Source: Eubacterium ventriosum (lineage in GTDB: Bacteria; Bacillota; Clostridia; Lachnospirales; Lachnospiraceae). Taken from it: DNA of 64,000 bases. The DNA is taken from the NCBI RefSeq assembly GCF_025150745.1, contig NZ_CP102282.1:941501-1005500 (forward strand), read 5' to 3'. A program made the position numbers and the translations under genes. Below are positions 8,651-60,470 of this stretch, piece after piece (the stretch's first letter is position 1; every line of letters starts with the position of its first letter). The notes under the pieces were generated by a model. That model was not told where the DNA came from. It searched no databases and was given only the letters and a program-made list of their open reading frames with translations.

Positions 8651-8721
8651 ACAAAAATATATGGAGTGCAATACTACCTCATTCCAGCTCCGTTTAGAAA
8701 TGTGTTCTTTGAAAACTGAAT

Positions 8722-8955
8722 AAAGTAATCAGATACGTTTGATATACGGTAAGCCGACGGACTGGAACGCCATGACCCATGAAAGGAGGGATATAAGAGC
8801 GAGCGACCACGCCAGTGATCCGTAAGCGACTGTTGGAAAAGTTGCTGCCATGACCCGTATATCAGAATAATGATACACTCGCATGGTGCGATTCACCCAT
8901 AAGAATGGGAATGGTGAAATTCCAGTGGAGCTTGCCAAAGCCATCTGATTACTTT
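8722..8955 (+). ncRNA. Candidate structured RNA of the ICE (unidentified class)
   Basis: The segment is closed by a perfect 13-bp pairing of AAAGTAATCAGAT (8722-8734) with ATCTGATTACTTT (8943-8955). Inside, TGATATACGG (8740-8749) pairs perfectly with CCGTATATCA (8855-8864). Smaller hairpins include AGCGAC/GTTGCT (about 8825-8846), CCCAT/ATGGG (about 8896-8909) and GGAAT/ATTCC. GCCATGACCC occurs twice, near 8770 and 8849. There is no plausible + strand protein, and the minus-strand open frame is explained by the stems. The position is between orf8 and the recombinase genes. I cannot assign it to a known RNA class. A DNA-level role such as a transfer or excision site is an alternative. Confidence 0.5.
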
Positions 8956-9032
8956 CTATTTATAGACAAATTCTTTCATAACGTACAAGCATTTTTGCAT
9001 ACTTTGTAAATATATTGTAGTGAGGTGGTTCA

Positions 9033-9176
9033 ATGGCAAATGATATAAAGGTAGTTTGCAAGAATGTTTTTAAAAATTGTGATAAAGCGGCGTTTACAAA
9101 AGCATTTACTCTAAAATGGATAGAGTTGATAAATCAATATGAAAAAAATAAAGGAAAGGCAACTCCTGCCAGATGA
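9033..9176 (+). CDS. 47-residue ORF in the excisionase position
   Basis: This short ORF begins MANDIKVVCKNVFK and ends KGKATPAR. It has a ribosome-binding site (TGAGGTGG) six bases before its ATG and ends about 80 bases before the recombinase. In Tn916 the corresponding place is held by xis. The product is basic and small, as recombination directionality factors often are, but I see no clear family motif. Treat it as a conserved-looking hypothetical gene. Confidence 0.55.
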   Translation: MANDIKVVCKNVFKNCDKAAFTKAFTLKWIELINQYEKNKGKATPAR

Positions 9177-9257
9177 TAGACAAACTATCCTACAAGATGT
9201 TATAATAACATTATGTAGAGATAGTTTGTTTCGTCTTCTCTAAAAGGAGAACGAAGC

Positions 9258-10826: not shown

Positions 10827-10912
10827 GGTTCTCATATCTGGCAGCTAGTATGCCAGATTATCGGGAACTATCTTTTAAAACCTCAATGTTGTTTTTACAT
10901 AATCGTACCATC
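10827..10912. other. Right end of the ICE and attachment junction inside cotJC
   Basis: Between the recombinase stop and the cotJC reading frame lies an ICE terminal segment with an imperfect stem around TCTGGCA and TGCCAGA. Reading cotJC on the minus strand, similarity to CotJC stops after EDMAA and only a few foreign codons follow. A GA dinucleotide on the minus strand at 10911-10912 coincides with the expected start of the next native Glu codon. GA is the crossover dinucleotide of TndX-type recombinases. The exact crossover point is inferred. Confidence 0.6.
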
Positions 10913-11317
10913 CGCAGCCATATCTTCTATAAGGTCTGCAATAGGATCACCACAAGATTGGAAGGTAGTAGCTGAGAAAGGAACACCTCCGGCAGACTGT
11001 GGCCATACGCCCAAAGTGTGGTCGACATAGTATTTCTCAAAGCCTGCAAGGTCAATATCATCACAAGGAAGGTCTTTTACAAGCTGGGAAACAATGGAGC
11101 CGACCATTTCGAGATGCCCAAGTTCTTCCACCGCAATATCATTGATTAAACCTGCAACTTTAGGGTTTTTCATTGCAAATTTCTGTGACATATAACGCAT
11201 TGCGGCCGCTGATTCTCCGTCAGGACCCCCATACTGACTCAAAACTATTTGAGCAATTTTTGGACTTTTGATTTTAATATTTACAGGATACTGTAATCTT
11301 TTTTCATAATTATACAT
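10895..11317 (-). pseudogene. cotJC: CotJC spore-coat manganese-catalase-like protein, truncated by the ICE
   Basis: The first ~134 codons match CotJC of spore formers: MYNYEKRLQYPV at the start, then YGGPDGESAAAMRYMSQ, EELGHLEM and GDPIADLIEDMAA. After that the frame runs into ICE sequence and stops at 140 residues; the B. subtilis protein is about 189. The missing part normally contains the Glu after AAE and the His in REREIVH that complete the di-manganese site, so the product is probably inactive as a catalase. The remainder should lie beyond the left end of the ICE, outside this window. It is the third gene of the cotJABC operon and its start overlaps cotJB. Confidence 0.88.
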
Positions 11318-39664: not shown

Positions 39665-40255
39665 TTAAGTGCCTTTGATATTATGTGTTAACTCAACTTT
39701 TATTTTAAGTGTTTTTTCTAAAATAACTAGAATGGCTGCCAAATCAATAGATGTAAAAAGCGTAGTAGAATATAGAAAATATTTTGTAAAAAATAAAACG
39801 ATTCCAATAAAAAGGATCACCAGTAAGGCTACACGTTTAATTTTTGTGTATTGAATAATTTCGAAATTCTCCAAACAACGAGTCTGATTTCCTTCTGTTT
39901 GAGTAAAAAACAAGTAAATAAAATTTGCAAAAGATATTATTATTAAAATAACAATATTTTTATAAAAAAATGGTTGACTAACCAGCAAAATAACAATAAT
40001 TATGTTAGAAATCACATAGCAAAGAAAACGCGATTTACAATGGAATCCACCACAATATGAACGTAACGGTATGAAAGATATTAGAAAAAATAGCAATATA
40101 TCTGTTTTTTTGACTATATATGAAAGAAATAATGCTGTTAAAAAATTTGCGATTATCATAAAACCATTATTTAAACCATAAATGTAAAATTCCTTATTTT
40201 CGCTAATAATTTTTTTCTCTATCATTTTGTCAACTAAATAATCTGTAATTACCAT
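39665..40255 (-). CDS. agrB: AgrB-family peptide-processing membrane protease
   Basis: This 196-residue polytopic membrane protein cuts and cyclises an AgrD peptide into an autoinducing thiolactone. The catalytic His and Cys are in YCGGFHCKSRFLCY, with the usual seven-residue spacing (H then C), and the preceding Arg/Ser region is conserved. Four to six hydrophobic segments follow. It starts two bases after the agrD stop codon, so the two genes are translated together. They run opposite to the regulatory genes downstream on the + strand. Confidence 0.9.
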   Translation of the reverse strand: MVITDYLVDKMIEKKIISENKEFYIYGLNNGFMIIANFLTALFLSYIVKKTDILLFFLISFIPLRSYCGGFHCKSRFLCYVISNIIIVILLVSQPFFYKNIVILIIISFANFIYLFFTQTEGNQTRCLENFEIIQYTKIKRVALLVILFIGIVLFFTKYFLYSTTLFTSIDLAAILVILEKTLKIKVELTHNIKGT

Positions 40256-40257
40256 AA

Positions 40258-40425
40258 CTAAAATTTCCTTAATTTTTTAGCATTTTCAGGTAATTTTTCT
40301 TCGTGTAATACATACCAACATCTTTGATTGGATGCGACAGTAGTAATGACTAATGCAAATGTGGCAAATGAAGAAAGCATTTTTATATTTGCATTTGAAA
40401 TGAATTTTTTAAGAATTGCCTTCAT
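40258..40425 (-). CDS. agrD: AgrD-type cyclic autoinducer peptide precursor
   Basis: This 55-residue precursor has an amphipathic N-terminal leader (MKAILKKFISNANIKMLSSF), a hydrophobic stretch, the core around NQRCWYVL and a charged tail (HEEKLPENAKK). Cys36 would close the thiolactone; by analogy with other AgrD peptides the ring would be the five residues Cys-Trp-Tyr-Val-Leu, but the N-terminal cut is not predictable. AGGAGG lies seven bases before the ATG at 40425. The open frame continues upstream to 40581 but only the inner start has a ribosome-binding site. Confidence 0.88.
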   Translation of the reverse strand: MKAILKKFISNANIKMLSSFATFALVITTVASNQRCWYVLHEEKLPENAKKLRKF

Positions 40426-40622
40426 AAATAAACCTCCTTTTTTATTTTGATAAATATTATCACAAATGATGCAAAAAAAACGAAATTGTAATAAAAGGTA
40501 TTTTATATGTAATATTTTCACAAAAAATATATAAAATATTGTCGAAAGTAGCACTATATATAGACCTAGTTTTGAAAACAAACGAGTAAAATTGTAGCAG
40601 GACTATATATGGGAGGAGTGCT

Positions 40623-40853
40623 ATGACTTCAAATGAAGCAATCTGTAAGAGAATATCAGATTTGTGTAAGGAACAAAATATTACTTATTATGCATTAGCA
40701 TCTCGTGCGGCTATTCCAAAATCTACACTCATGAACATATTGTCTGGTACTAATACAACTGTTGCTACCATTAATAAAATATGTAGTGGTTTAGGAATAA
40801 CGATGTATGAGTTTTTTCAGTCAGAGTATTTTGAAGATTGTGAAGATGATTAA
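40623..40853 (+). CDS. Small XRE-family DNA-binding protein
   Basis: This 76-residue protein consists almost entirely of a Cro/C1 helix-turn-helix: ISDLCKEQNITYYALASRAA, then PKSTLMNILSGTNTTVATI. It starts after GGGAGGAG and ends 16 bases before the first LytTR regulator, so it heads the regulatory operon. It is divergent from agrD, and the 200-base AT-rich gap between them probably holds both promoters. A short motif (GTAGCA followed by ACTATATAT) occurs twice there, at about 40547 and 40597. Confidence 0.88.
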   Translation: MTSNEAICKRISDLCKEQNITYYALASRAAIPKSTLMNILSGTNTTVATINKICSGLGITMYEFFQSEYFEDCEDD

Positions 40854-40869
40854 TATGAAGGGGAGAAAA

Positions 40870-41574
40870 ATGTTACGTTTGGCAGTTTGTGATGATGATA
40901 AAATTGTTGTAGAACAAATAGAGTCATATATAGAACAATTAAAAGAATTATCTATAGTATATGAGGTGTACTTTTCAACAGAAGAATTTTACGGTCACAT
41001 GTTTGAATTAGATTTTGATGTATACTTTCTAGATATAGAAATTGCAGACAAATCAGGAATAGAATTGGCTAAAAAAATAAGACAGGCAAATCAATATGCA
41101 GTGATTGTATTTATAACCAGTTATTCTAAATATGTTATAGATGTGTTTGATGTCAATACCTTTAATTTTATTTTAAAGCCATTGACGTATGAAAAATTCA
41201 AAAAAACTATATGTAAAGTATCTGACTATATTTTTACTTCTAAAACTAATTTTGTCTTTATGCATAACAAAAATCAGTATGCTATTCCTTATCATAATAT
41301 TATTTACATAGAAAAGAGAAAACGTAAAGCATATATTTATACAAATTCTGGGTATGTGTATAAATGCAATATGACTATGGAACAAATTATAGAACGACTT
41401 ACGACAAATAGATTTGCAAAAATAAATCGAGGATGTATCGTTAATTTGGCAATGATTGATGAAATTATAAGAGAAGAAATTCATTTGCTAAATGGGGAAA
41501 TTCTATATATAGCACGAGATTGTAAAATGGACATAAAAGAAAAGCATCTAAATTATTTTAGAAAAATGATATAA
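40870..41574 (+). CDS. LytTR-type response regulator 1 (AgrA-like)
   Basis: This 234-residue response regulator has an N-terminal receiver domain (residues 1-120: LAVCDDDK acidic pocket, phosphoryl Asp in VYFLDIEIAD, Lys in ILKPLTY). The C-terminal LytTR DNA-binding domain (about 135-234: NIIYIEKRKRKAYIYT and RFAKINRGCIVNLAMIDEI) follows. AgrA-type proteins of this class activate agr and downstream peptide genes after phosphorylation by an AgrC kinase. ATG 40870 follows GGGGAGAAAA; the frame is open further upstream through the end of the XRE gene. Confidence 0.92.
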   Translation: MLRLAVCDDDKIVVEQIESYIEQLKELSIVYEVYFSTEEFYGHMFELDFDVYFLDIEIADKSGIELAKKIRQANQYAVIVFITSYSKYVIDVFDVNTFNFILKPLTYEKFKKTICKVSDYIFTSKTNFVFMHNKNQYAIPYHNIIYIEKRKRKAYIYTNSGYVYKCNMTMEQIIERLTTNRFAKINRGCIVNLAMIDEIIREEIHLLNGEILYIARDCKMDIKEKHLNYFRKMI

Positions 41575-41677
41575 TAAATCTGCAAGATAAGTATAAAAGA
41601 GTACATTTATTAGGCTGATTTAGATAGGTAAGTGTGTTATAATTACAAAGTCATTAAATCTAAAGGAGAGACAGAGG

Positions 41678-42385
41678 ATGAAAATTGCAATATGTGATGA
41701 TGACACAAATGTAATTGAGCAAATAGAACAATATATTGAAAACATTAATGATAAGTCATTGGAATACGAAGTATTTTTTAGTGCAGAGGAGTTAAAATGG
41801 TATATAACTAAAAACGATGCAAAATTTGATTTGTTTATATTAGATATTGAGATGAAAGAAGTGTCTGGAATAGATTTTGCAAAAAATCTTCGTGAGAAAG
41901 ATATGGATACGTTAATTGTTTTTATGACAAGTCATTCTAAATATGTATTTGAAGTGTTTGATGCAATAACATTTGACTTTATTGAAAAACCGTTGACTTT
42001 TGAAAAAATGAAAAATATGTTGGAAAAAGCAAAAAAGTATCTGGGTATGGCACAAAAAAGATTTGTGTTTTCTTATAGAAAAAATAGTTATAGTATTGCT
42101 TTTTCAAATATTAACTATTTAGAGAAAGCAGGTAGAAAAGTATGGATATATACGACGGATGACAAAAAATATCAGTCTAATATGACATTGGAAGAAATAG
42201 TGTCACAATTAGATGCTGAAATGTTTGGGCTATTGAATAGATCTTTGATTGTAAATATTTCAAAGATTGAAGGATTTATAGGTGAAAATGTAATCATACA
42301 AGGTGGAAAAATGCTATATGTAAGTAGAGATTATAAAAAAGAACTTAAGAAAAAACACTTAGATTATTTAAGGGGGCAAGTATAA
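41678..42385 (+). CDS. LytTR-type response regulator 2 (AgrA-like)
   Basis: This 235-residue paralogue of the preceding regulator has the same domain order: receiver with CDDDT, phosphoryl Asp in FILDIEMKE and Lys in IEKPLTF, then LytTR (NINYLEKAGRKVWIYT, AEMFGLLNRSLIVNISKI). The two proteins are clearly related along their length but well diverged, so this is an old duplication. It has its own upstream region (TTATAAT near 41640) and AAAGGAGAGACAG as ribosome-binding site. The histidine kinase follows two bases after its stop. Confidence 0.92.
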   Translation: MKIAICDDDTNVIEQIEQYIENINDKSLEYEVFFSAEELKWYITKNDAKFDLFILDIEMKEVSGIDFAKNLREKDMDTLIVFMTSHSKYVFEVFDAITFDFIEKPLTFEKMKNMLEKAKKYLGMAQKRFVFSYRKNSYSIAFSNINYLEKAGRKVWIYTTDDKKYQSNMTLEEIVSQLDAEMFGLLNRSLIVNISKIEGFIGENVIIQGGKMLYVSRDYKKELKKKHLDYLRGQV

Positions 42386-42387
42386 GC

Positions 42388-43647
42388 GTGATTTACGATA
42401 TTATAATAAATTTAATTGATTATTTAATCATTTTTAAATATTTCAATTGCTTTGGCAAAAAAAGAAATTTGAAAAAGAAATATTGCATTAGTATTTTTTT
42501 CAGTTGTATTGTATTAGTAAGTGTAATTAATCAGTTGCAGAATCAGTATATAAATCTTATTTTATGCATATTAATGATTTATTTATACAGTTTATCCTTT
42601 TCATATGGAATATCTTATCATATTGTTTTGCCTATTCTGTATATTGGGTTTGGAATTGTGGCTGAACTAATAGGATTCATTATTTTAAATGTTTCAGGAA
42701 GTATATTACCATATCCAGTTCAATATTATGGCAGTTCATTCATCTGTGAATTTATTCGCTATTTGATTGTTTGCGTTTTTTGCAGTATCAAAAAAATAAA
42801 GCTTCCAAAATTATCTTTCAAAATAGGTAAATTTCTGGTGATTATCCCGATTTCAAGTATTATTATATGTTGTATTGCAATTAATATTATTCAAAATAGT
42901 AAAAATAATCTAGTTAATATGATGTGTATGGTAATAATTATTATGACAATTACTAGTAATATTTTGATGTTTAAAATGTTTTTTAAAGTAATAGATACAT
43001 TATCAGATAATTATGAAAAAGAAATGTTATTACTAGAAGCAGAAGCAAAAGAACAATATTATCAGGAACTAGAAAAGAGTAGCAGAGAAGTACGCAAAAT
43101 CAAACATGATTTAAAAAATATGTTATTAGCAATATGTGGAAAAGCAAAAAAGCAGAATGAGATTTCAGAAGAAATTTATAAAATTATTAAGGAATTGGAT
43201 GAAAGCGACAAAAAAATATATACATCTAATGTGGTTATCAATACAATAATAAATCACAAGATTAGTCAGGCAAAAAAATTAGAGATAAAGACAGATGTAA
43301 ATATTAAAGTGTCAAAAGCTATTCATATAGACTATAAAGACGCTGGAATTTTGTTAGGAAATATATTAGATAATGCAATAGAAGCGTGTGAAAAGATAAA
43401 AAAGAAAGAGAGATGGATTAAAATAGACATGCTTCATAATAAGAATACATTGTTTATTGAAGTATGCAATAGTAAAGGAAAGGAGCTAACAAATATCAGT
43501 AAAAGCAGTAAAAGTGATGCTCATAATCATGGAATAGGAATATCAAGTATAAAGGCTATTACAAAGAAGTATGATGGTTATGTAGAATTTGTCGATAAAG
43601 GAGAAGAATTTGAGGTTGTCGTGAACTTATACGGAATGAGTTTTTAA
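42388..43647 (+). CDS. GHKL-type sensor histidine kinase (AgrC-like)
   Basis: This 419-residue membrane kinase has six or so N-terminal transmembrane segments (about residues 1-205) and then a dimerisation helix with the phospho-acceptor in RKIKHDLKNML. The GHKL ATPase domain has the N box LGNILDNAIEAC and the G box NHGIGISSIKAI. This is the layout of AgrC, which senses cyclic peptides in the membrane. The GTG start at 42388 follows AAGGGGGCAAG. Only one kinase is present for two regulators, so it may phosphorylate both. Confidence 0.92.
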   Translation: MIYDIIINLIDYLIIFKYFNCFGKKRNLKKKYCISIFFSCIVLVSVINQLQNQYINLILCILMIYLYSLSFSYGISYHIVLPILYIGFGIVAELIGFIILNVSGSILPYPVQYYGSSFICEFIRYLIVCVFCSIKKIKLPKLSFKIGKFLVIIPISSIIICCIAINIIQNSKNNLVNMMCMVIIIMTITSNILMFKMFFKVIDTLSDNYEKEMLLLEAEAKEQYYQELEKSSREVRKIKHDLKNMLLAICGKAKKQNEISEEIYKIIKELDESDKKIYTSNVVINTIINHKISQAKKLEIKTDVNIKVSKAIHIDYKDAGILLGNILDNAIEACEKIKKKERWIKIDMLHNKNTLFIEVCNSKGKELTNISKSSKSDAHNHGIGISSIKAITKKYDGYVEFVDKGEEFEVVVNLYGMSF

Positions 43648-44861: not shown

Positions 44862-46208
44862 ATGGCATCTACTACATACAAATTATCAAACTATAATTTT
44901 GTAGTTGAAAATAATGGGGAACTAATAGTTTATAACTCATATATAGGAATGAATAGTATACTGAAGATTTCATCGGAAGAACTGAAAAAAATTATTAAAC
45001 CAGATTGTGAGAGAATGGCTATTGGTGATAATAAATATGTTGAAATATTAATTGAAAAAGGGTTATTAGTAGAAAAAAATATTGATGAATTAACACTTGT
45101 AAACAAGAAAAAAGAAGAATATTTTAGCAATAATATGTTGGAGATAACGATATCATTGACAAAAAAGTGCAATTTCAATTGCACATATTGTTATGAGAAA
45201 AAAGATAATTGCACAATGAATATTAAAACAATAGAAAATTTAGTTAAGTTAATTAAAATCTTGATGAGAAATAAAAAAACATTGAAGGTTAATTGGTTTG
45301 GCGGTGAACCATTGATAGAGAAAAATATTTTAGAGGCTTTATCAAGAGAACTTATAAAATATTGCAGAGAAAATAAAAAATTATATTTTTCTACAATGAC
45401 AACAAATGGATATTTATTGGATATTAATACATTAAAGTTGTTAATGAAATTGAAAGTTTACAGTTTTCAAATTACGATTGATGGAACAAAGAAAACTCAC
45501 AATACATTAAGACCATTAAGTAATGGAGGAGAAACTTATGATAAAATTTTAATAAACTTGAAAGAGATAAGTAAAAAAATAAAATCACCAATGTTAAGAA
45601 TTTTGTATAGATGTAATTTTACAAGTGACAGTTGGAATGATTATAAATCAGTAATAGAGGAGTACTGCAAGAATTTTCTGGAGGACAATAGATTTAATTT
45701 TTTACCGATGATAGTGAATGATTGGGGAGGGGAAAAAGTAAAATCTATTAAAAATGATATAATTTCAAAAGAAAAATTTTCACAGCTTGAAAAGAATGTG
45801 AATAATGAGCTTTTTAAAAAGGGATATGATAAAAATAATTATTATAATCAACTTGAGGAGTTAGAGATACGATCAAATTGTCAGTATTTTATTAATGATA
45901 ATTTTTCGGTTGAACCTAATGGAGACATATATAAATGTACAGTTCTTCTTAAAAATAGAATAGGAAATGTTAATGAAAACATTGATTATAAAAAAATGAA
46001 AGTTAATATGGACAAATTTAAGAATTGTACTGAGTGTGTTTTTTATGGAATGTGTAATCAAATTTTGTGCAATAAATTTGATAATAAGTTAACTTGTAAA
46101 AATGTTGAAAAGCATATAAGTACTATTTTAGAGAATATCCCAGAAGAGCTTTTTGTTAAAGTGGCAAATTTGGAAGGAGTTAAAGAATTAAGAGGATTTA
46201 AGTTATGA
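44862..46208 (+). CDS. Radical SAM/SPASM peptide maturase (Cys-rich peptide type)
   Basis: This 448-residue enzyme has an N-terminal ~95-residue peptide-recognition-like part and then a radical SAM core with the cluster motif KKCNFNCTYCYEK (Cys103, 107, 110). The C-terminal SPASM-type region has many cysteines (YKCTVLL, NCTECVFYGMCNQILC, TCKN) for auxiliary Fe-S clusters. Such enzymes install thioether or C-C crosslinks in ribosomal peptides. The pairing with an acyl-carrier-like gene resembles, from memory, the CLI_3235-type clostridial Cys-rich peptide systems (CcpM maturases). It overlaps the next gene by four bases. Confidence 0.9.
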   Translation: MASTTYKLSNYNFVVENNGELIVYNSYIGMNSILKISSEELKKIIKPDCERMAIGDNKYVEILIEKGLLVEKNIDELTLVNKKKEEYFSNNMLEITISLTKKCNFNCTYCYEKKDNCTMNIKTIENLVKLIKILMRNKKTLKVNWFGGEPLIEKNILEALSRELIKYCRENKKLYFSTMTTNGYLLDINTLKLLMKLKVYSFQITIDGTKKTHNTLRPLSNGGETYDKILINLKEISKKIKSPMLRILYRCNFTSDSWNDYKSVIEEYCKNFLEDNRFNFLPMIVNDWGGEKVKSIKNDIISKEKFSQLEKNVNNELFKKGYDKNNYYNQLEELEIRSNCQYFINDNFSVEPNGDIYKCTVLLKNRIGNVNENIDYKKMKVNMDKFKNCTECVFYGMCNQILCNKFDNKLTCKNVEKHISTILENIPEELFVKVANLEGVKELRGFKL

Positions 46209-46480
46209 ATGAAATATTAAAGATAAAAATGATACTAGAAGATATAGGCATAGAAATTAATATTGATGAGAAAAATTGTGATGATATAGATTTAACTGAA
46301 TACATAGAAGATTCAATGGAATTTATGGAGTTTATGATGAATGTAGAGGAAGAATTTGAGATTGATATACCAGATGAATGTATGAGTTTAGAGGCTATAA
46401 AGTCATTAAATGGCTTTTTAAATATAATTATTTCCTGTAAAGAGGAACAAAAGAAAGATGGCTTGAATAGCAAATTATAG
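46205..46480 (+). CDS. Acyl-carrier-like protein of the peptide maturation cluster
   Basis: This 91-residue acidic protein is predicted to be helical. YIEDSMEFMEFMMNVEEEFE corresponds to the acyl carrier protein signature D-S-[LM] at the start of helix 2, with Ser37 as possible phosphopantetheine site, followed by IDIPDE, the usual turn before helix 3. Acyl-carrier-related proteins are known companions of the clostridial Cys-rich peptide maturases. Whether it carries an acyl group or only serves as a docking protein cannot be told from sequence. It overlaps the maturase gene and is followed after 19 bases by the candidate precursor. Confidence 0.8.
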   Translation: MNEILKIKMILEDIGIEINIDEKNCDDIDLTEYIEDSMEFMEFMMNVEEEFEIDIPDECMSLEAIKSLNGFLNIIISCKEEQKKDGLNSKL

Positions 46481-46499
46481 GAAAGGGGAGTGAAAAGGA

Positions 46500-46589
46500 A
46501 TGAAGTTATATAAGAATAAAAGTTCTAAGAACTTAAATTTATATGCTCAAGAAAAAGTGATCATTAATATCTATAGATGCAATTGCTAA
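46500..46589 (+). CDS. Candidate precursor peptide (29 residues, C-terminal Cys-Asn-Cys)
   Basis: The short ORF begins MKLYKNKSSKNLNLYAQEK and ends INIYRCNC. It has a purine-rich ribosome-binding site (GGAAAGGGGAGTG and AAAAGGA) and a hairpin terminator 22 bases after its stop. It sits directly after the maturase and carrier genes in the same transcript. The two Cys and adjacent Tyr, Arg and Asn at the C terminus are plausible sites of modification. There is no Gly-Gly cleavage motif, which fits processing by the subtilisin at 48758 rather than by a peptidase-containing exporter. Confidence 0.65.
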   Translation: MKLYKNKSSKNLNLYAQEKVIINIYRCNC

Positions 46590-46610
46590 ATCTTGAAATA
46601 ATATTAAGTA

Positions 46611-46640
46611 AAAGGCTGTCAAATGGCAGCCTTTGTTTAA
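46611..46640 (+). terminator. Terminator after the precursor peptide
   Basis: AAAGGCTG (46611-46618) and CAGCCTTT (46627-46634) form a perfect stem, followed by GTTTAAG. It is likely to stop most transcripts after the precursor, so the transport and protease genes may be expressed at a lower level. The gap 46641-46956 is AT-rich and shows no other gene. Confidence 0.75.
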
Positions 46641-46956
46641 GATTATTTTAATAAAATATATACTACAAAGTATATGCTACTTTTATATTCAATATATTGC
46701 GATAAAAATGATTTTAATTAAAATAAAAGATCTTTATAATTAATTATTATATTTTTAAAATGTCTATTTACTAAAAATAATTTGCGGTCAATTTGATAAT
46801 ACAATATTTAGGTGGATAATAGTGAAAAGAAAATTATCGTGTGCTGTCACTATAAAGGTTATTATTAAAATAATAAATGGTAAGATGGTTTTATCGCTAT
46901 TTAAAAGGCAAGTATTTTTTTACTGAGATCATCAATTTATGGAGGTGAAAATTAGC

Positions 46957-48783
46957 ATGGACAAATTGAAAAAGAAAATTGGATATTTATTTTTACTCGT
47001 GAAAATTTTACATCGTACAGATAAGGGTTTTTTATGGACGTTAATTATACAGATTGGATTTTTGGCGATTATTCCATTTATTCAATTAGAGCTGACAAGA
47101 CAATCAATAAAGATGCTGACGGATTATTCAAAGTATGATGCATATATATGTAACATAGTGACATTATTATTAATTTTACTTTTATTAAATATAATGAGTA
47201 CTTTTTTTCAAGGAAAAAATGAACTTAAAGCAAATGTAATTGGACAAATATTGTATAAAGAAATATTAAAAACTTGTCTTTTTATGGATTATGAAGAACT
47301 ACAGAAAAAGCAAACGCAAGAAAAAATGAAAACCGCGACTTTAGCATTTGAAAATGGATCGCTACAAAATTTAACAAGAGAATTCAAAGTTATTATTTCA
47401 TCTGTTGTAATAATAAGTGGAATAATAGGAATCGTCGCGTATTCAAATATCTATTTGTTAGTTATTTCTTGTGGGATTATTCTTGTGAATTATTATATCT
47501 TGAAAAATGTAAAAGCAAAACAATATAATGTAGATAAAGAAATAGTACCAATAGGAAGACAAATTGAGTATTTTGATAATATTGCGGCAGACTTTTCTAT
47601 TGCTAAGGAAGTGAGATTATACCATACAGAAAATGCAATGTTAAATGAATACAATAATTTAAAACATCGTTTGGTTAATATAGCAAACAAAATGATTAAA
47701 ACTAGAATTGATAGCGAAATGTATATAAACATCGGAAATCATATTTTAGAAATTGCCATTTATATTATTTTAGGCTATAGCGTTTTGATAAAAAAAGAGA
47801 TATCTGTTGCTGAATTTTCAGCTGTTGCTGTTGCGGTTAGAACATTTAGCTCATGTATGAATGATATGTTGGATTCTTTTACGGACATAGAAAAAAATTC
47901 AATGCATTTGAAAGATTATTTCGAATTTATTCAAATAAAGTCAAAATTTAAAAAGAGTGGTAATAGAAAGATTGAAGCTTCAAAGTTTGAAATTGTATTT
48001 AAAAATGTAAGTTTTAAATATCCTGAGAGTGAAGTATATGCATTAAAAAATTTGAATTTAAAAATTAGAAATGGAGAAAAGATTTCTATTGTAGGGGAGA
48101 ATGGTTCTGGAAAGACTACCTTTGTTAAACTGTTATTGAGATTATATGATCCAACGGAGGGGAATATTTATATAAATAATATTAATATAAAGGATATTAA
48201 ATACGAAAATTATTTAGACTTGTTCTCTACAGTTTTTCAGGATTATAAATTATATGCCTTTACTATTAAAGATAATATACAAATGTTTAATAAGGATAGA
48301 AATGAAAGCGAAAATGACAATAAACATATTATGAATATTTTAGAAAAGTTAAATATTAAAGACAGAATTGAAAGCTTAGAAAATGGGTTAGACACATATT
48401 TGTATAGAATATTTGATGAGAATGGTGTTGAATTATCTGGTGGACAAAATCAAAAAATTGCTATTGCAAGAGCAATATATAAAAATGCTGGGATATTTGT
48501 GTTGGATGAGCCTACAGCAGCATTAGATCCGAGAGCTGAACATGAAATATTTAATGATTTTAATAATATGGTTCAAGGGAAAACTGCAATATATATATCT
48601 CATAGATTGTCAGCTAGTTTATTAGCTGATAGGATAATTGTCTTAAAAAATGGATTGATTGTTGAAGAAGGTAAACATAAAGATTTAATCGATAGAAACG
48701 GATTATATGCGGAATTATTTAATTTGCAAGCACAATATTATATCGGGGAAGAAGGAAATGGCAAAAATTGTAATAATAGATAG
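46957..48783 (+). CDS. ABC exporter of the peptide cluster
   Basis: This 608-residue half-transporter has six transmembrane segments (about residues 20-300) fused to an ATPase domain (about 345-590). Walker A is VGENGSGKTT (about 379), the signature is LSGGQNQK (about 492) and Walker B is IFVLDEPTAALD, with a switch His in ISHRLSA. It lacks a C39 peptidase domain, so leader removal must be done by another protein, here probably the subtilisin encoded downstream, whose start overlaps by 26 bases. ATG 46957 was chosen as the start because GGAGGTG lies nine bases upstream; the upstream ATG overlaps that site. Confidence 0.92.
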   Translation: MDKLKKKIGYLFLLVKILHRTDKGFLWTLIIQIGFLAIIPFIQLELTRQSIKMLTDYSKYDAYICNIVTLLLILLLLNIMSTFFQGKNELKANVIGQILYKEILKTCLFMDYEELQKKQTQEKMKTATLAFENGSLQNLTREFKVIISSVVIISGIIGIVAYSNIYLLVISCGIILVNYYILKNVKAKQYNVDKEIVPIGRQIEYFDNIAADFSIAKEVRLYHTENAMLNEYNNLKHRLVNIANKMIKTRIDSEMYINIGNHILEIAIYIILGYSVLIKKEISVAEFSAVAVAVRTFSSCMNDMLDSFTDIEKNSMHLKDYFEFIQIKSKFKKSGNRKIEASKFEIVFKNVSFKYPESEVYALKNLNLKIRNGEKISIVGENGSGKTTFVKLLLRLYDPTEGNIYINNINIKDIKYENYLDLFSTVFQDYKLYAFTIKDNIQMFNKDRNESENDNKHIMNILEKLNIKDRIESLENGLDTYLYRIFDENGVELSGGQNQKIAIARAIYKNAGIFVLDEPTAALDPRAEHEIFNDFNNMVQGKTAIYISHRLSASLLADRIIVLKNGLIVEEGKHKDLIDRNGLYAELFNLQAQYYIGEEGNGKNCNNR

Positions 48784-50545
48784 TGGAATAGACTTAACAA
48801 ATAGAGAATTTGAAGGAAGAAAGATTTCGGGTATACATATTTATGAAGACAAGGCTGGTAAAATAAATATAGATGAGAACATTAAAGATCAAATAGGTCA
48901 TGGAACGGCAGTTGCAGCAATATTAAATGAAGATTTAGATAATGAATTATTCGTTATTAAGATTTTTGATGAAGAAATGGAAGGTGATATTAATTTATTA
49001 GTGCGAGCATTGGAGTATGTCTATGAAAATGTGAAGTGCGACATAATTAATATGAGCGTAGGGTTTACCGAATTTGATTCTATAGCTGAAATAAATAATA
49101 TTTGTAATAAATTATACTTTGAAAAAGGGATAATTATGGTTTCTGCTTTTGATAATTTTGATACAATATCATATCCAGCAGCATTAGATACCGTCATAGG
49201 TGTAGACATATCAAATGAAATACATAAAAAAAGAGAGTTTTACTATTTAAAAAATAGTGTTGTTGACATATTATTAAAAGATTCAATGCATAGAGTAGTA
49301 TGGTTAGATAAAAAAATTATGGTTCATGGAACAAGTTTTGCAACTCCAAAATTTGTTAAAATGTTAGCAAAAGAATTAAAAACAACTGATAAAGAAAAAA
49401 TAAGAGAAAGGCTTGAACATATAGCAACAAAAGTTGTTGATTTTAAAGATGAAAAATATGAATCAAAATTGGAGTATTTTAAAATTGAAGAGGCTATTGT
49501 ATTTCCTGTAAATAAAGAAATGCATACATTAATAAGATTTGAAGAAGATTTGAAATATACTATGAATTTTTATGATATAAAATATTCAGGTAAAGTTGGT
49601 TCAAATACATCACGATTTGTGCCAAAATCTAATCATATAATAATGGATATAGATAAAATAGATTGGACAGGAAAATTTGATACTGTAATTTTGGGACATT
49701 GTAATGAGTTATCAAATATAACAAATAGGGATTATATAGATAATATTTTGAATAATGCTATCAAATATAAAAAAAATGTGTTCGCTTTTGATGATTTGAA
49801 AGAATATAGTAGTCTAATAGATAGAATTAAAAAAAATGGAAATCATGTATATTATCCATTTGTGACAAAGCGAAAAGGGAGAAGTACATTAAGTAAATTG
49901 CATTATATACCCAAACCCGTACTAGCAGTATGTGGAACAAGCTCAGTACAAGGAAAGTTTACACTTCAATATATGTTGAGAAAAAAATTTGAAGAACAAA
50001 ATATTAGTGTTGGACAAATTGGAACAGAGCCAACATCATTATTATTAGGATTAGATGCAGACTTTACAATCGGGTATGATTCAAGAGTTGAGGTGGGAGG
50101 ATATGATTTTATTTCTGAAGCAAATAAAGTTATATTTGAAGTATCTCAAAAGAATAATGATATTATTATAACAGGTACACAATCAAGTACGATACCATAT
50201 AGTTATAATTCTTTAAAGAATATACCTTTGCATTCACTAGAATATTTAATGGCTGTAAAACCGGATGCGGTAGTATTGTGTGTGAATAGGTATGATCCGA
50301 TAGAGTATATAAAAAGAACAATATTAACCATAGAAAATTTGTTTAACACAATTGTAGTTGCTATATCGGTATATCCTATAGATAAAACTAGAGAGAAATT
50401 TAAAAATAAGGAAAGAGAGAATAGCGAAGAATTCATTGAAGAGATGTCTATGAAAATAGGAAAAAAATGTTACTTAATGAATTCTGAGAAGAAATTAGGG
50501 TGTTTATTTGATGATGTATTAACGTATTTTACTACACCAAAATAA
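48758..50545 (+). CDS. Subtilisin (S8) protease fused to a DUF1611-like P-loop domain
   Basis: The 595-residue protein begins directly with a subtilase domain that has a complete triad: Asp8 in IIDSGID, His48 in GHGTAVAA and Ser193 in HGTSFATP. There is no signal peptide or propeptide, so it acts in the cytoplasm, probably as leader peptidase. From about residue 270 to the end is a second domain with the P-loop-like VCGTSSVQGKFT (residues 391-402) and IGTEPTSLLLGLDADF, resembling the ATP-binding half of DUF1611 proteins. The fusion is unusual. It overlaps the exporter gene and is followed after 15 bases by the next gene. Confidence 0.82.
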   Translation: MAKIVIIDSGIDLTNREFEGRKISGIHIYEDKAGKINIDENIKDQIGHGTAVAAILNEDLDNELFVIKIFDEEMEGDINLLVRALEYVYENVKCDIINMSVGFTEFDSIAEINNICNKLYFEKGIIMVSAFDNFDTISYPAALDTVIGVDISNEIHKKREFYYLKNSVVDILLKDSMHRVVWLDKKIMVHGTSFATPKFVKMLAKELKTTDKEKIRERLEHIATKVVDFKDEKYESKLEYFKIEEAIVFPVNKEMHTLIRFEEDLKYTMNFYDIKYSGKVGSNTSRFVPKSNHIIMDIDKIDWTGKFDTVILGHCNELSNITNRDYIDNILNNAIKYKKNVFAFDDLKEYSSLIDRIKKNGNHVYYPFVTKRKGRSTLSKLHYIPKPVLAVCGTSSVQGKFTLQYMLRKKFEEQNISVGQIGTEPTSLLLGLDADFTIGYDSRVEVGGYDFISEANKVIFEVSQKNNDIIITGTQSSTIPYSYNSLKNIPLHSLEYLMAVKPDAVVLCVNRYDPIEYIKRTILTIENLFNTIVVAISVYPIDKTREKFKNKERENSEEFIEEMSMKIGKKCYLMNSEKKLGCLFDDVLTYFTTPK

Positions 50546-50560
50546 TGAAAGAGGAATAAA

Positions 50561-52615
50561 ATGATACATAAATTTTCTATACCAAAATTTCAGACATATC
50601 CAGATATGACAGGAATTTTAGGAATTTTAACAGCTTTAGGCATTGAAAAAAATTGGATATATAATAATTATTTATTATTATGGTCTTATAAGAAAATCGA
50701 CGACGATAATTATTGGTGTGATTTTAAACAAGGAGATTATCTTATTGACAATTCTATACTTCCTTTGAAATTTATTGAATTTGATAAAAAAAATTTCAAC
50801 AGTAAGAGAGAAGTTATAACATTTCTTAAAAAACTTTTAAAAAATGGGTATATATTAACAGATTTAGATACCTTTTATTTTGATGAATGGTGGTCTAATG
50901 AAAGTATAAGAGAACATAATAGTCATACGGTAATGATATTTGGTGATACTGAGGAAGAATTTTTATGTGCCGATTTTTTGAAAAGTAAATATGGTTTGTT
51001 TTCGGGGAAATATATGGATATAGCAGAGGCTTTTTTCCGGGGGAATAATAAAATATATGGGATAGAAATTACAAATACTAAGCTGGAGAAAAATAATGAT
51101 TTATTAAAAAAACAAATTATTGATTTTATACATTGCAGTGGAAATTCAGTGACTAATTTTTTGAATTTATATACTTATGAAAATACTCTATATGGATTTG
51201 AAGCATTAAAAAACATTTTTTTGAAAATAAAAATATGTTTTGAGAAGAGGGAATTTATTGATTTGAGATCAATACAAATTATTCTGATTTTTGCTAGAAT
51301 TATGAAAGAAAGAGTAATTTTCTGGAATAATAATAGTTTAACAAAAAAATATGATTACATAATGGATATATGCGTTAAACTAGAAAGTAAAGTATTTAAT
51401 TTACTTATTTTGTGTATGAAAATAAATTATAAGAAGAAATATACAAACAAGAAATATATATATAGATTAACAGATGATATTTTAAGAGAAACCACGTTGT
51501 TGTTTGAAGAGTTATTAGAATGTTTAGATATCGAATTATCTGAAGTTGAGAAAGATATATTGTGGAAAAATTGGGATAAATTAAAAAAAGATAGAGTGAT
51601 AATGCATGAGTGTAGAAAAGTAATTGGAGATGAAATAAATATTAGTTTTTTTAGAAAAGTAAAAGTAAAGTTTGATGATTGTTTAAATAAACCTAACAAA
51701 TTAGAAAATATGATATACAATATAAAAAATGAATGTATAGCGATTTATACAAATGATTTTTGGAAAAATGTTTTTCAATTTGATATCGAAGAAAATGGAT
51801 TTGAAAAAAATGGGAAAATAATTTCAGATAAAGAGTGTAATAATCAAGTTTCGGAAAAAGTTTATTTTTTTGATGCTCAAAAAAGGATAAAAATGATTGA
51901 GTACAAGAATAAATTTATGAAGAACATTTATCTAATCTATGAGTATGAAGGTAATCATATTATAAGATATAAAGTAAATAAAGAATCTAAAACGATACAT
52001 CAAGTATTATTTGACATACATAATAAAGATAAAGAAATTCAATACATATATGCAGAAGAATATAAAAAATTAATTATGTATGAATTAAAAAAAGGAAGAA
52101 AAAAGAGAGCTTTAATATACAAAACTTCTGATTTTAATATGCCCGATAATATTTGGATAGATAATAATTGGAGTGAAAATCAAGAATATATTTACAATAG
52201 TAAAAACGAATTATTACAAATAATTAGAACTGATTATGAGAAAAATAATCAGTTGATTTATTCAAACCTAGGCAGGCATTTAAATGAGGGATTAATAATG
52301 GAACAGTTTAAAGTAATTCTTAATTCAATTATTCAAAGGAAGAACATTAAGAAAAGTGATAGGATTGTTATTAATTTTAATACATCTATTCATACTGTAA
52401 CTGTAAAAATAAATAATGAGATATATGATAGTATGTCTTTTTTAGAAGAATATAAGTTATATAGAGAGGCATTAAATAGGTTTACAACCATTTTTTCTAT
52501 TGAAATATTTAAATATAATAAATTGTATAAACTTAATATTTTTTTAACAGTAAATAATTTAAAAGTTGTTCTAGAAAAACAAATTTTAAGCAATAAAACG
52601 ATATTTTATTGTTAA
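50561..52615 (+). CDS. Uncharacterised 684-residue protein of the peptide cluster
   Basis: The protein is large, soluble and strongly Lys/Asn/Ile-rich, with no signal peptide or clear transmembrane segment. The N-terminal ~165 residues have a pattern (GYILTDLDTFYFDEW, then NSHTVMIFGDTEEEFLCADF) that reminds me of the BtrH-type N-terminal acyltransferase fold, but the usual catalytic Cys near the start is not seen. The middle is helical. The C-terminal ~250 residues contain FDAQKRIKMIEYK-type beta-rich segments. With a carrier-protein-like gene in the same cluster, an acyl-transfer or scaffold role is conceivable. The function is not known. It is last in the operon. Confidence 0.6.
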   Translation: MIHKFSIPKFQTYPDMTGILGILTALGIEKNWIYNNYLLLWSYKKIDDDNYWCDFKQGDYLIDNSILPLKFIEFDKKNFNSKREVITFLKKLLKNGYILTDLDTFYFDEWWSNESIREHNSHTVMIFGDTEEEFLCADFLKSKYGLFSGKYMDIAEAFFRGNNKIYGIEITNTKLEKNNDLLKKQIIDFIHCSGNSVTNFLNLYTYENTLYGFEALKNIFLKIKICFEKREFIDLRSIQIILIFARIMKERVIFWNNNSLTKKYDYIMDICVKLESKVFNLLILCMKINYKKKYTNKKYIYRLTDDILRETTLLFEELLECLDIELSEVEKDILWKNWDKLKKDRVIMHECRKVIGDEINISFFRKVKVKFDDCLNKPNKLENMIYNIKNECIAIYTNDFWKNVFQFDIEENGFEKNGKIISDKECNNQVSEKVYFFDAQKRIKMIEYKNKFMKNIYLIYEYEGNHIIRYKVNKESKTIHQVLFDIHNKDKEIQYIYAEEYKKLIMYELKKGRKKRALIYKTSDFNMPDNIWIDNNWSENQEYIYNSKNELLQIIRTDYEKNNQLIYSNLGRHLNEGLIMEQFKVILNSIIQRKNIKKSDRIVINFNTSIHTVTVKINNEIYDSMSFLEEYKLYREALNRFTTIFSIEIFKYNKLYKLNIFLTVNNLKVVLEKQILSNKTIFYC

Positions 52616-57209: not shown

Positions 57210-58361
57210 ATGAAAAGAATAACAATAATGATGACAATGGCATTAATGGTCTGTTTGTGCCTGGGAATAAACGGTACGGAAGTAAAGGCAGAAAGCATGA
57301 CACAACAGGTTTCTGCACCTAAAGGATTTCAGGGAACATCCACTAATGGAAAGATAAAGCTTAAGTGGAAAAAGAACGGTGATGCAAGTGGCTACATACT
57401 TTACAGAAACGGAAAGAAGATAAAAAAATTAAAGTCGACAACAACATCATATGTGGACAAAAAAGTAAAAATCAACAAAAAATATAAATATCAGATACTT
57501 ACTTATAAGAAAACAGAAATTCAAACTGAAAAAAGTGCGAAAAGCTATAAAATAACAGTAGTTGCAACAGACAAGAAATCAAAAAAACTAAATGCTGCAA
57601 GATTTGTAAATATTAAAAGTAATTACAAGATTGGATGGGGCGAAACATTAAAATTAAAACCGGTAGCAAAGTATTCAAAAAAAATCAAAGGAAAGTATAA
57701 GAAAGGTAAAAAGGTATACAGCAAGAAGATTAAATGGAAATCCTCAAATCCACAGCTTGTAAAGGTTAACAAAAACGGAAAAATCACGGCGACATCAGAA
57801 AGAGTAATCGGAACAGCAAAGATAACAGCAAGAAGTCATAACGGAATAAGGAAGACCTTAAATGTAAGTGTGGTTAACTTTGCAAGGTTAGATAAGATAC
57901 AAAATCTGGAAAAAGTAAAGGATGAAGGAATAAAAAAATTGTTAACAACACAAAAAGATGCAACATCTATAATAGCAGATTTCTTTCAAAATAATATACC
58001 AAATCAAGAGTTAGAATTGACATTAGGAATGAAGCAAGTGAAGACAGAAGATGGAGCGATAACACATGCTTGGAGCATAATCATAAACCCGGAAGAAGAA
58101 ATAGAAAGTAATATGTATAATTACATTTTAAAATATTTATCTGATAATTATAGAACAAGCATAAAAATAACGAAAGATTATATACGTTTTCAAAAACGTC
58201 AATTATACACCTGGGGCTACGAACTTAACGATCTAGTTTATGTGTTTAACAACAAAAGTGCGTTAGACAATTATCAGTATGATAATGCGGTATATGACAT
58301 CGTCAAAGTAGCAGACAGATGGTATTATGGAACAACCAATGCATACGGGCTGGCATATTAA
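57210..58361 (+). CDS. Secreted Fn3/Ig-like protein (intact copy of a tandem pair)
   Basis: This 383-residue protein has a signal peptide (about residues 1-27), an Fn3 domain (about 35-115: NGKIKLKWKKNGDASGYILY) and a basic Big_2-type Ig domain (about 130-220: IKWKSSNPQLVKVNKNGKIT). A C-terminal domain of about 150 residues ends DRWYYGTTNAYGLAY. It begins 23 bases after the previous gene, with AAAGGAGAGTAGCA as ribosome-binding site. A near-identical second copy lies directly downstream. The function is unknown; surface binding is likely for the Fn3/Ig part. Confidence 0.82.
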   Translation: MKRITIMMTMALMVCLCLGINGTEVKAESMTQQVSAPKGFQGTSTNGKIKLKWKKNGDASGYILYRNGKKIKKLKSTTTSYVDKKVKINKKYKYQILTYKKTEIQTEKSAKSYKITVVATDKKSKKLNAARFVNIKSNYKIGWGETLKLKPVAKYSKKIKGKYKKGKKVYSKKIKWKSSNPQLVKVNKNGKITATSERVIGTAKITARSHNGIRKTLNVSVVNFARLDKIQNLEKVKDEGIKKLLTTQKDATSIIADFFQNNIPNQELELTLGMKQVKTEDGAITHAWSIIINPEEEIESNMYNYILKYLSDNYRTSIKITKDYIRFQKRQLYTWGYELNDLVYVFNNKSALDNYQYDNAVYDIVKVADRWYYGTTNAYGLAY

Positions 58362-58445: not shown

Positions 58446-58524
58446 GGGAAATATGAATGTAGGATTATGCCTATTGCAATAAATACAAGGGAAAATGAAT
58501 CACTTAAAGAAGGAAGGTAAAACT

Positions 58525-59681
58525 ATGAATCAAAGGAAGAAATGCTTATGCATAATTTCATTATTATTAATGGGATTACTTTTTGATATTCACATAGAAG
58601 CAACCAAAGTAAAGGCAGAAAACATGACACAACAGGTTTCTGCTCCTAAAGGATTTCAGGGAGCATCCACTAATGGAAAGATAAAGCTTAAGTGGAAAAA
58701 GAACAGTGATGCAAGTGGCTACATACTATATAGAAATGAAAAAAAGCTAAAGACATTAAAGTCAAAAAACACATCATATGTGGACAAAAAAGTAAAAATC
58801 AACAAAAAATATAAATATCAGATACTTTCTTATAAGAAAACAGAAACTCAAACTGCAAAAAGTGCAAAAAGCTACAAAGTAACAGTAGTTGCAACAGACA
58901 AGAAATCAAAAAAACTAAATGCTGCAAGATTTGTAAATATTAAAAGTAATTACAAGATTGGATGGGGCGAAACATTAAAATTAAAACCGGTAGCAAAGTA
59001 TTCAAAAAAAATCAAAGGAAAGTATAAGAAAGGTAAAAAGGTATACAGCAAGAAGATTAAATGGAAATCCTCAAATCCACAGCTTGTAAAGGTTAACAAA
59101 AACGGAAAAATCACGGCGACATCAGAAAGGGTAATCGGAACAGGATAACAGCAAGAAGTCATAACGGAATAAGGAAGACCATAAATGTAAGTGTGGTTAA
59201 CTTTTCAGGATTAGACAAGATACAAAATCTGAAAAAAGTTAAGGACAAAAACATTATAAAAATGTTAACTGATGAAAAGCAGGAGACATCTGATATCGCG
59301 GATTATTTTCAAAAGAACAAAGTCAATGAAGAAGTTGAATTAGAATTTGGACAAAGGAAGGTAAACACAGAAGATGGAGGAATAACATATGAAATATGTA
59401 TAAAGATGAACTCAGAAATAAAAATAGAAACGGATATGTATAATGAAATATTAAAATGCATAGATGATAATTTTATTAAAATAAAAATAACACCTGAATA
59501 TATTCGTTTTCAACATAATTATTTATACACCTGGGGTTACGAACTTAATGATCTAGTGTATGTGTTTAACAACAAAAGTGCGTTAGACAATTATCAGTAT
59601 GATAATGCGGTATATGACATTGTTAAAGTAGCAGACAGATGGTATTATGGAACATCCAATGCTTATGGGCTGGCATATTAA
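58525..59681 (+). pseudogene. Second tandem copy of the Fn3/Ig-like gene, frameshifted
   Basis: It has the same domain order as 57210-58361, with signal peptide, Fn3, Ig-like and the same last ~45 residues. The frame stops at 59148 because four bases (CAAA) present in the first copy are missing after 59143, so GGA-ACA-GGA-TAA ends the protein in the Ig domain. The remaining reading frame continues from about 59193 to 59681. The DNA of the Ig domain is almost identical between copies while the C-terminal middle is diverged, which suggests a recent duplication or gene conversion of that block. The 5' product (about 207 residues) might still be secreted. Confidence 0.88.
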
Positions 59682-59719: not shown

Positions 59720-60470
59720 GTGATTTTTGAAAAGATTACAGAAAATAAAGGTCGATATGGTTACAGACGAATTCACGCCCTACTTAAGCGTGAAAATATA
59801 ATTGTCTCAGAAAAAGTTATTCGTAGGATTATGAAAGAAGAACAACTTGTAGTAAAAATCAAACGAACTCGTAAATATAATTCCTATCAAGGTGAAATAT
59901 CTCCAGCAGTAGATAATCTAATTAACAGAAATTTTTCTGCATCTAAACCTAACGAAAAGTGGTTAACAGATATAACCGAGTTTGCAATTCCGGCAGGAAA
60001 GGTTTATTTATCGCCTATAGTAGATTGTTTTGATGGCTTACTTGTCAATTGGAATATAAGCACTTCTCCAGATGCATTACTTGTCAATTCTATGCTTGAC
60101 GATGCAGCTAAATTACTATCTGTAGGAGAAAAACCAATCATACATTCAGACAGAGGCGTACACTACCGCTGGCCAGGCTGGATTTACAGGATTGAGAAAA
60201 ATGGTTTCATACGATCAATGTCAAAGAAAGGCTGTTCACCTGATAATTCTGCCTGTGAGGGCGTATTTGGAAGAATTAAAAATGAGATGTTCTATAATGC
60301 AGATTGGTCTGGGGTAAACATCTCAGAATTTATTGGTATTTTAAATGATTATCTTTATTGGTATAATGAAAAAAGAATAAAAAAATCATTAGGATATTTG
60401 AGTCCTATAGAGTACAGACATAGACTTGGATTGGTCACTTAGATAGTCCAAGAAAATGTCCGCACCCTCG
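59720..60470 (+). mobile_element. 5'-truncated IS3-family (IS150-like) transposase
   Basis: The frame encodes 240 residues of an OrfB-type transposase: an HTH_21-like segment (NKGRYGYRRIHALLKRENI), then the DDE core with Asp in WLTDITEF, Asp in HSDRGVHY and Glu in ACEGVFGRIKNEMF, and the end NEKRIKKSLGYLSPIEYR. The first ~40 residues of OrfB and all of OrfA are missing, so the left end was lost next to the broken secreted gene. The right end probably lies near 60470, after AATGTCCGCACCC. It is not expected to move on its own. Confidence 0.85.

Follow-up and report, generated by a model that had tools for sequence, protein, structure and literature searches.

A putative ribosomal peptide cluster in Eubacterium ventriosum combining a radical SAM maturase, a serine-bearing carrier protein and a subtilisin–DUF1611 fusion

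A stretch of 64,000 nucleotides of Eubacterium ventriosum DNA (contig NZ_CP102282.1, positions 941,501 to 1,005,500), referred to here as the window, harbours between its positions 44862 and 52615 six neighbouring genes for a radical S-adenosylmethionine (SAM)/SPASM maturase, a carrier protein, a short cysteine-ending peptide, an ATP-binding cassette (ABC) exporter, a subtilisin fused to a DUF1611 domain and a protein of 684 residues, called gene 6 below. Very probably, these genes form a cluster for a ribosomally synthesized and post-translationally modified peptide (RiPP). A further reading, tentative and held with slightly less than even confidence, is that the RiPP pathway includes an added carrier-dependent acyl step, perhaps of a 'cut and cap' kind. 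What is observed is the gene set, its recurrence in other genomes, the predicted folds and, in the radical SAM enzyme, carrier and protease, the preserved residues for catalysis or attachment. All six open reading frames (ORFs) are present at the positions given in a preliminary description of this DNA, and their Pfam domains bear out the types that it had assigned. The features are the following:

44862–46208, plus strand: radical SAM/SPASM peptide maturase, 448 residues (Pfam Radical_SAM, 72.6 bits)
46205–46480, plus strand: carrier protein, 91 residues, attachment Ser37 within DSMEF (Pfam PP-binding)
46500–46589, plus strand: probable precursor peptide, 29 residues, ending CNC (profile ranks; position and strand as in relatives)
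46611–46634, plus strand: hairpin, likely a terminator or mRNA stabilizer (RNA fold)
46939–48783, plus strand: ABC exporter, 614 residues, without C39 peptidase domain (Pfam ABC_tran, 109.8 bits)
48758–50545, plus strand: cytoplasmic subtilisin (S8)–DUF1611 P-loop fusion (Pfam; the longest ORF, from 48707, has 612 residues)
from about 49496, plus strand: DUF1611 P-loop half of the fusion (Pfam DUF1611, 40.3 bits)
50561–51565, plus strand: N-terminal domain of gene 6, residues 1–335, predicted papain-like fold of the AziU2-U3/CtaG/CcbD kind (AlphaFold2 model, Foldseek, 50-row alignment)
51566–52615, plus strand: C-terminal part of gene 6 (the whole gene spanning 50561–52615), of a kind unassigned by Pfam (low model confidence)

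Recurrence of the gene set and its precursor peptides

A search with the protease in 299 genomes of the family gave a match at E≤0.001 in 51. Both protease halves are matched at seven places outside the window, spread over six family genomes; the 20-kb stretches around them contain the same neighbours, along with small ORFs that end in Cys and follow a common pattern. When GTDB genomes were scanned with aligned DUF1611 halves, 110 places were confirmed, and the best 80 of these were kept (L058–L137). The halves used in the scan came from fused proteins, so such proteins dominate the 80 by design; 'fused' in the counts denotes an ORF of at least 480 residues. The loci come from Clostridia, Paenibacillus, Tumebacillus, Sutcliffiella, termite-gut Treponema and other Spirochaetaceae, as well as from Bacilli, Latescibacterota and Gemmatimonadota. 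Profile models at set thresholds detect all six parts in 31 of the 80 loci: a fused-length protease ORF is found in 73, an ABC exporter in 68, a carrier in 55, a maturase in 54, a gene-6-like ORF in 52 and a precursor in 49, many of the loci being cut by contig ends. A compact example, in Tumebacillus flagellatus (L058), has a gene-6-like ORF at 6017–7057, a radical SAM gene at 7322–8728, a carrier gene at 8725–8988, a precursor at 9085–9174 and a protease–DUF1611 gene at 9230–11071. Since it recurs in this manner, the gene set is beyond chance. The preliminary description, which had proposed a radical-SAM peptide cluster, staked that proposal on homologues occurring together elsewhere and on conservation of the small peptide ORF. 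The parts recur, and conserved peptides resembling precursors accompany them, so the proposal has held on both counts. The arrangement that marks a RiPP cluster, a conserved short precursor beside a modifying enzyme, a protease and an exporter, is thus present, with precursors in 49 of the 80 loci. Carriage by viruses was rejected, as none of 37 pattern matches in viral contigs was confirmed.

The peptide of the window, MKLYKNKSSKNLNLYAQEKVIINIYRCNC, is a divergent member of the precursor set, with a leader containing MKL.K and LYAQE and a core that ends RCNC. Of 1680 candidates, an iterated model picked out 77 as precursor-like, 70 of which belong to the window or to L058–L137; they share M-K-K-L-x-K-P, a basic stretch, L-Y-x-x-E and then a tail with cysteine. 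Although both strands were scanned (L058–L137 supplied 924 candidates on the plus strand and 604 on the minus strand), every one of the 70 is encoded on the same strand as the core gene closest to it, and 68 of the 70 unique peptides, from which 32 were hand-picked for alignment, have a cysteine within their last 60%. When the window row was left out, a model of 31 peptides, themselves the outcome of a search seeded with the window peptide, ranked that peptide first among 1931 small ORFs (E 0.0069, the next at 0.26). A strict model, never seeded or trained with the window peptide, ranked it fifth of 1931 (E 2.1), which counts against the assignment; clear recognition by an independent model is weakened accordingly, given the seeding of the 31-row model. 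Among the 96 small ORFs of the three gaps in the cluster, the strict model ranks it first, with a scaled E of about 0.1. Taken alone, the sequence evidence for the window peptide is moderate. Together with the position of the ORF directly past the carrier gene, on the same strand and behind a Shine-Dalgarno-like stretch, the model ranks make it very probable that the 29-residue ORF is the precursor. Elsewhere, four tandem Cys-rich precursor-like peptides (MKKP.KEYE.., CES/CEYCNxCN; L049 12075–12643) lie next to a divergent fused protease locus.

The maturase retains CX3CX2C in 53 of 53 aligned rows and its seven SPASM cysteines in 52–53 of 53, the rows for this count and for that of the carrier having been chosen by score and length thresholds. 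It is thus a radical SAM/SPASM maturase with cluster cysteines, of the sort that characterizes sactipeptide and ranthipeptide pathways. Its best NCBIfam match, as for the maturases of five relatives, is TIGR04463, at 178 bits against a cut-off of 525; the Clo7bot model TIGR04334 gives 150 bits against 600. Membership of either family is ruled out by scores so far below the cut-offs. Additional enzymes accompany some loci: a tally of 100 of the 127 neighbour ORFs of L058–L137 includes 12 Radical_SAM and 8 Transglut_core matches, so that a second radical SAM enzyme, or one resembling a transglutaminase, is present in some loci.

Kinship with the CLI_3235 type

The preliminary description had likened the cluster to the CLI_3235-type systems. 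Examples of that type are the SacP23 cluster of Paenibacillus polymyxa and a cluster of Roseburia intestinalis L1-82; SacP23 comprises genes for a radical SAM enzyme, a carrier-related protein, a TIGR04066 protein labelled 'immunity', a subtilase and an ABC protein (PMC10731318). A radical SAM/SPASM maturase, a carrier-related protein, a TIGR04066/DUF1611 protein, a subtilase, an ABC exporter and a Cys-containing peptide are common to the type and to the window. The window differs in having protease and DUF1611 in one protein, a shorter peptide, a carrier with an attachment serine, and gene 6. No gene-6-like ORF was found at E<1 in eight CLI_3235-like loci (L050–L057, six with separate proteases and two with distant fused ones).

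The likeness does not amount to membership, as no component reaches the NCBIfam cut-offs. The maturase scores 90 bits with TIGR04068 (cut-off 500; five relatives 69–98), the DUF1611 half 72 bits with TIGR04066 (cut-off 200; three relatives 74–99) and the carrier 18.4 bits with TIGR04069 (cut-off 70), a model without any match at E≤0.001 in the genome itself. The peptide has no match to TIGR04065 (cut-off 26 bits); two relatives score 7.5 and 12.4 bits, and matches at E≤10 occur in 3 of the 32 aligned peptides, the best at 0.00085. By these four models CLI_3235-type membership is ruled out, and the cluster is, on its sequence scores, a relative of that type. In searches of the open-licence literature, TIGR04066 came up for CLI_3235-type clusters only, and no description of the fused kind was found.

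The case for an acyl step

That the carrier protein implies an acylation step was a suggestion of the preliminary description. It has gained indirect support from an invariant attachment serine, the predicted folds of gene 6 and of the DUF1611 half, and, in a congeneric genome, a gene 6 relative beside an AMP-binding/carrier fusion. The carrier matches PP-binding narrowly above the Pfam cut-off (21.2 versus 20.8 bits). Ser37 and Glu48 are each kept in 56 of 56 rows of carriers of the fused kind, and the attachment serine within a PP-binding domain is what a functional carrier possesses. Among 11 distinct CLI_3235-like carriers, gathered with TIGR04069 and from loci, only one has serine at this site, the others having Pro, Ala or Asp; the TIGR04069 cut-off is reached by only two of these proteins, those of L138 and L139, the serine-bearing protein being one of the pair, and the comparison leaves aside L050, the same protein as that of L142, and L144, which did not align. 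The fused kind thus seems, from its sequences, to use a cargo-bearing carrier where its relatives mostly do not. This contrast represents one correlated difference rather than many, because the fused and the CLI_3235-like kinds are separate lineages. The carrier of the window is probably charged in the cell.

Gene 6 has no Pfam or NCBIfam match. In an AlphaFold2 model built on 50 of 52 available rows (L065:2-1009 and L077:18786-19613 dropped), residues 1–335 are mostly of high confidence and the C-terminal half is poor. All 16 Foldseek matches of the N-terminal domain to PDB entries at E≤0.001 are a chain of the AziU2-U3 complex, CtaG or CcbD, with E from 5.5e-8 to 1.1e-4 and target-normalized template-modelling scores of 0.45–0.62 for the predicted model, which places the domain by predicted fold with the carrier-dependent papain-fold enzymes CtaG, CcbD and BtrH. 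To judge from the structure titles, AziU2-U3, CtaG and CcbD act with carrier-bound substrates, and one matched CcbD entry has the peptidyl carrier protein (PCP) domain of CcbZ bound. CtaG of the closthioamide pathway is reported to be a peptidyl transferase between carriers (PMC6772006) and BtrH an acyl carrier protein:aminoglycoside acyltransferase (PMC10318531). These enzymes, CcbD being that of celesticetin, serve nonribosomal peptide synthetase (NRPS) or aminoglycoside pathways; window gene 6 lies in a peptide cluster and, unlike them, has an extra 350-residue part, without a Pfam match or a relative in 89 sequences searched with a one-sequence model. Across the gene 6 family Tyr97 is kept in 50 of 50 rows, His122 in 48 and Gly128 in 50.

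Several results weigh against an ordinary enzyme of this fold. The cysteine expected where the first helix begins occurs in 9 of 50 rows (for example in TECWSY) and is absent from the window protein, which has Pro14 at that column, and the CtaG and CcbD structure titles name Cys variants. Searched as a sequence profile, the family gives no match to AziU2-U3, CtaG or CcbD, leaving gene 6 with no sequence link to the solved structures by this route; the BtrH_N model (cut-off 29.7 bits) does not match in the window, and relatives stay below the cut-off, the best at 25.0. With the fold kept and Pro14 in place of cysteine, window gene 6 has the predicted fold of a carrier-dependent amide-forming enzyme without the usual nucleophile. 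It may work by a different chemistry or serve for docking.

These observations also bear on an alternative in which the locus is a divergent CLI_3235-type sactipeptide or ranthipeptide cluster, the carrier and gene 6 serve as scaffolds, and the product is cross-linked and trimmed, with no acyl group added. The TIGR04066 score of the DUF1611 half, the weak TIGR04065 matches of three peptide relatives and the comparable gene set of SacP23 (PMC10731318) all fit such a cluster, as does the missing cysteine of window gene 6; the loss of serine from 10 of the 11 CLI_3235-like carriers indicates that a cargo-free carrier can serve such systems. The uniform retention of Ser37 in the fused kind and the absence of gene-6-like matches from L050–L057 speak against it, and it is judged rather unlikely.

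The fusion protein scores 47.3 bits for Peptidase_S8 and 40.3 for DUF1611 (cut-off 25), both above the Pfam cut-offs. Checked residue by residue in 60 of 65 suitable locus proteins plus the window, the triad D25, H65, S210 and the P-loop G410/K417 are kept in 61 of 61 rows. The S8 half finds its best NCBIfam match in the QhpE subtilisin (92 bits, below the cut-off of 165), a cytoplasmic protease that acts on a radical-SAM-cross-linked protein and that, unlike the window protein, lacks a DUF1611 half. The ATG at 48758, behind GAAGGA, fits the homologues better than 48707 and is the more likely start on sequence grounds. In L048 (56–2105), at a contig start, an ABC gene 55.6% identical to that of the window is followed by a subtilisin ORF of 304 residues that matches fusion residues 3–281 only.

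A model of the DUF1611 half (60 of the 61 rows, L111 dropped) has a predicted local distance difference test score of 91.9 and in a structure search matches 2g0t and 2obn, both DUF1611, the N-acetyltransferase DgcN (7xrj, E 1.2e-9) and then dethiobiotin synthetases. DgcN converts D-glutamate by acetylation. The C-terminal half of the protease shares its predicted fold and its P-loop with 2g0t, 2obn and DgcN, and by Pfam score and predicted fold it belongs with DUF1611/DgcN proteins. DgcN stands alone in D-amino-acid metabolism (PMC12363236, PMC10845958), whereas the window half is joined to a protease and neighbours a carrier. That this half transfers the carried group after cleavage is possible rather than probable.

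Because of its likeness to dethiobiotin synthetases the DUF1611 half may instead be an ATP enzyme, which would load the carrier or activate a carboxylate and leave transfer to gene 6 alone. The P-loop invariant in 61 of 61 rows and the place of those synthetases after DgcN in the structure search agree with this, and no other loading gene recurs: the 25 top Pfam families listed for the 100 neighbours include no acyl-activating family, and one adenylation-domain query found nothing in 89 fused-type sequences, so that an adenylation domain as the loading enzyme of the fused loci is not in evidence with that query. The nearest functionally named structure is nevertheless an N-acetyltransferase, 7xrj, and window gene 6 lacks the cysteine; this alternative is improbable.

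Links between genes of this kind and acyl chemistry do occur elsewhere. In L043 the gene-6-like protein has a C-terminal GNAT domain (45.9 bits), and in L133 a GNAT gene precedes the protease gene. Alongside a gene 6 relative (29% identity over 267 residues), the congeneric genome G282 encodes two ABC exporters and a fusion of AMP-binding and PP-binding domains (203 and 37 bits, respectively); judged by these domains, it is a direct case of a gene of the gene 6 kind beside an adenylation-loaded carrier.

The reading with an added acyl step envisages five steps. With the Lys-rich leader as its guide, the radical SAM enzyme would cross-link the 29-residue peptide at core cysteines by radical chemistry, as is expected of its enzyme family. 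The carrier, in keeping with its invariant serine, would bear phosphopantetheine on Ser37 and hold an acyl or aminoacyl group. The cytoplasmic subtilisin, whose triad is complete, would remove the leader, probably near LYAQE. The DgcN-like half, with gene 6 as carrier-binding partner, would then move the group to the freed peptide amine or another nucleophile, thereby cutting and capping; this is the weakest step. The ABC exporter, which has no peptidase of its own (no C39 domain among ten Pfam matches), would export the product. Whether the carried group ends on the peptide is evenly poised.

Besides the anomalies of gene 6, the possible ATP chemistry of the DUF1611 half and the scarcity of loading genes, further facts count against this scheme. 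Neither a product nor an acyl group has been seen, cross-link and acylation alike being deduced. At the thresholds used, a maturase match is absent from 26 of the 80 loci and a carrier match from 25, and the maturase match is missing even from seven of the 37 loci that have flanks of about 10 kb in either direction.

Genomic setting and implications

The preliminary description had the six genes lying together with overlaps and short gaps. They are side by side, and maturase and carrier genes overlap by 4 nucleotides, the peptide ORF lies 19 bases beyond the carrier gene and the protease gene starts within the ABC gene; they are not, however, one tight run. A gap of 349 nucleotides separates the peptide ORF from the ABC gene. 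Within it, the segment 46590–46650 folds at −22.1 kcal/mol (z −6.6, none of 200 shuffles as stable) and contains the hairpin 46611–46634, absent from the output of a simple terminator scan. Given hairpin and gap, the cluster is likely to comprise two transcription units, and a single operon is doubtful.

The cluster is probably an acquired island. The guanine-cytosine (GC) content is 24–29% over 40–54 kb of the window, compared with 32–38% in the 12–40 kb bins and 31–37% in the 54–64 kb bins, and, among 23 genomes of the genus, the maturase scores 981.7 bits in its own and at most 57.4 in the others, none of which has a close relative of it. Further genes of the window were assigned by eye. 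A surface-type protein gene at 57210–58361 has a near copy split into the ORFs 58495–59148 and 59193–59681, downstream of which lies an integrase-like transposase ORF (59720–60442). Conjugative-element-like genes occupy 1–10826, the last being a large serine-recombinase-like ORF (9258–10826); GC content is higher, 45–46%, in the first 4 kb.

An agr-type set borders the cluster at 39665–43647: AgrB, an AgrD-like ORF, two LytTR regulators and an AgrC-like kinase. In G282 (L174) relatives of the same regulators and AgrB border a different cluster of carrier, gene 6 and ABC genes, the kinase being in two ORFs whose pieces are 80–82% identical and the regulator 77% identical; the agr-flanked site looks like a place where peptide or NRPS-like clusters are exchanged. 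AgrB-looking ORFs with kinase and regulator matches also lie near CLI_3235-like clusters in four of the eight loci L050–L057 (by eye: L050 16786–17376, L053 187–768, L055 17322–17933, L056 4706–5281). A signalling rather than antimicrobial role of the peptide, in which the neighbouring agr-type genes would either control it or respond to it, is very improbable: AgrB (86.3 bits), the regulators and the kinase lie just upstream, and AgrB, kinase and regulator also lie beside L042, but this AgrB has its own AgrD-like ORF alongside (40258–40581, by eye), and the single AgrB among the tallied 100 of 127 neighbour ORFs of the 80 loci rules out a general dependence on Agr.

Carrier proteins are components of fatty acid, polyketide and non-ribosomal peptide synthesis, and it is unusual to find a conserved, serine-bearing one within a radical-SAM cluster for a ribosomal peptide. 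The fold matches give a testable role to TIGR04066/DUF1611 and to gene 6, both of which have been without a settled one. It is conceivable, though doubtful, that the cluster represents a new peptide class joining ribosomal and carrier chemistry, in which the protease–DgcN-like fusion would cut the leader and cap the N-terminus, the carrier and its CtaG-fold partner would supply the group, and the radical SAM enzyme would be optional. In the Latescibacterota loci L133 and L135 the protease–DUF1611 gene stands together with gene 6 and a carrier-like ORF, whose 38–40 bits are too few for it to be counted, and a radical SAM match is missing. More broadly, L127, L129–L131 and L133–L136, metagenome-assembled genomes of Latescibacterota and Gemmatimonadota, have the fused protein without a radical SAM match and adjoining carrier-like ORFs of 20–40 bits, a gene-6-like ORF being present in L133 and twice in L135. 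If the proposed class is real, its non-radical branch would consist of the Latescibacterota loci in which the carrier module occurs but a radical SAM match does not. Isolates of Tumebacillus, Paenibacillus, Sutcliffiella, Anaerocolumna and [Clostridium] polysaccharolyticum are among the loci, so that the cargo of the carrier is open to direct test.

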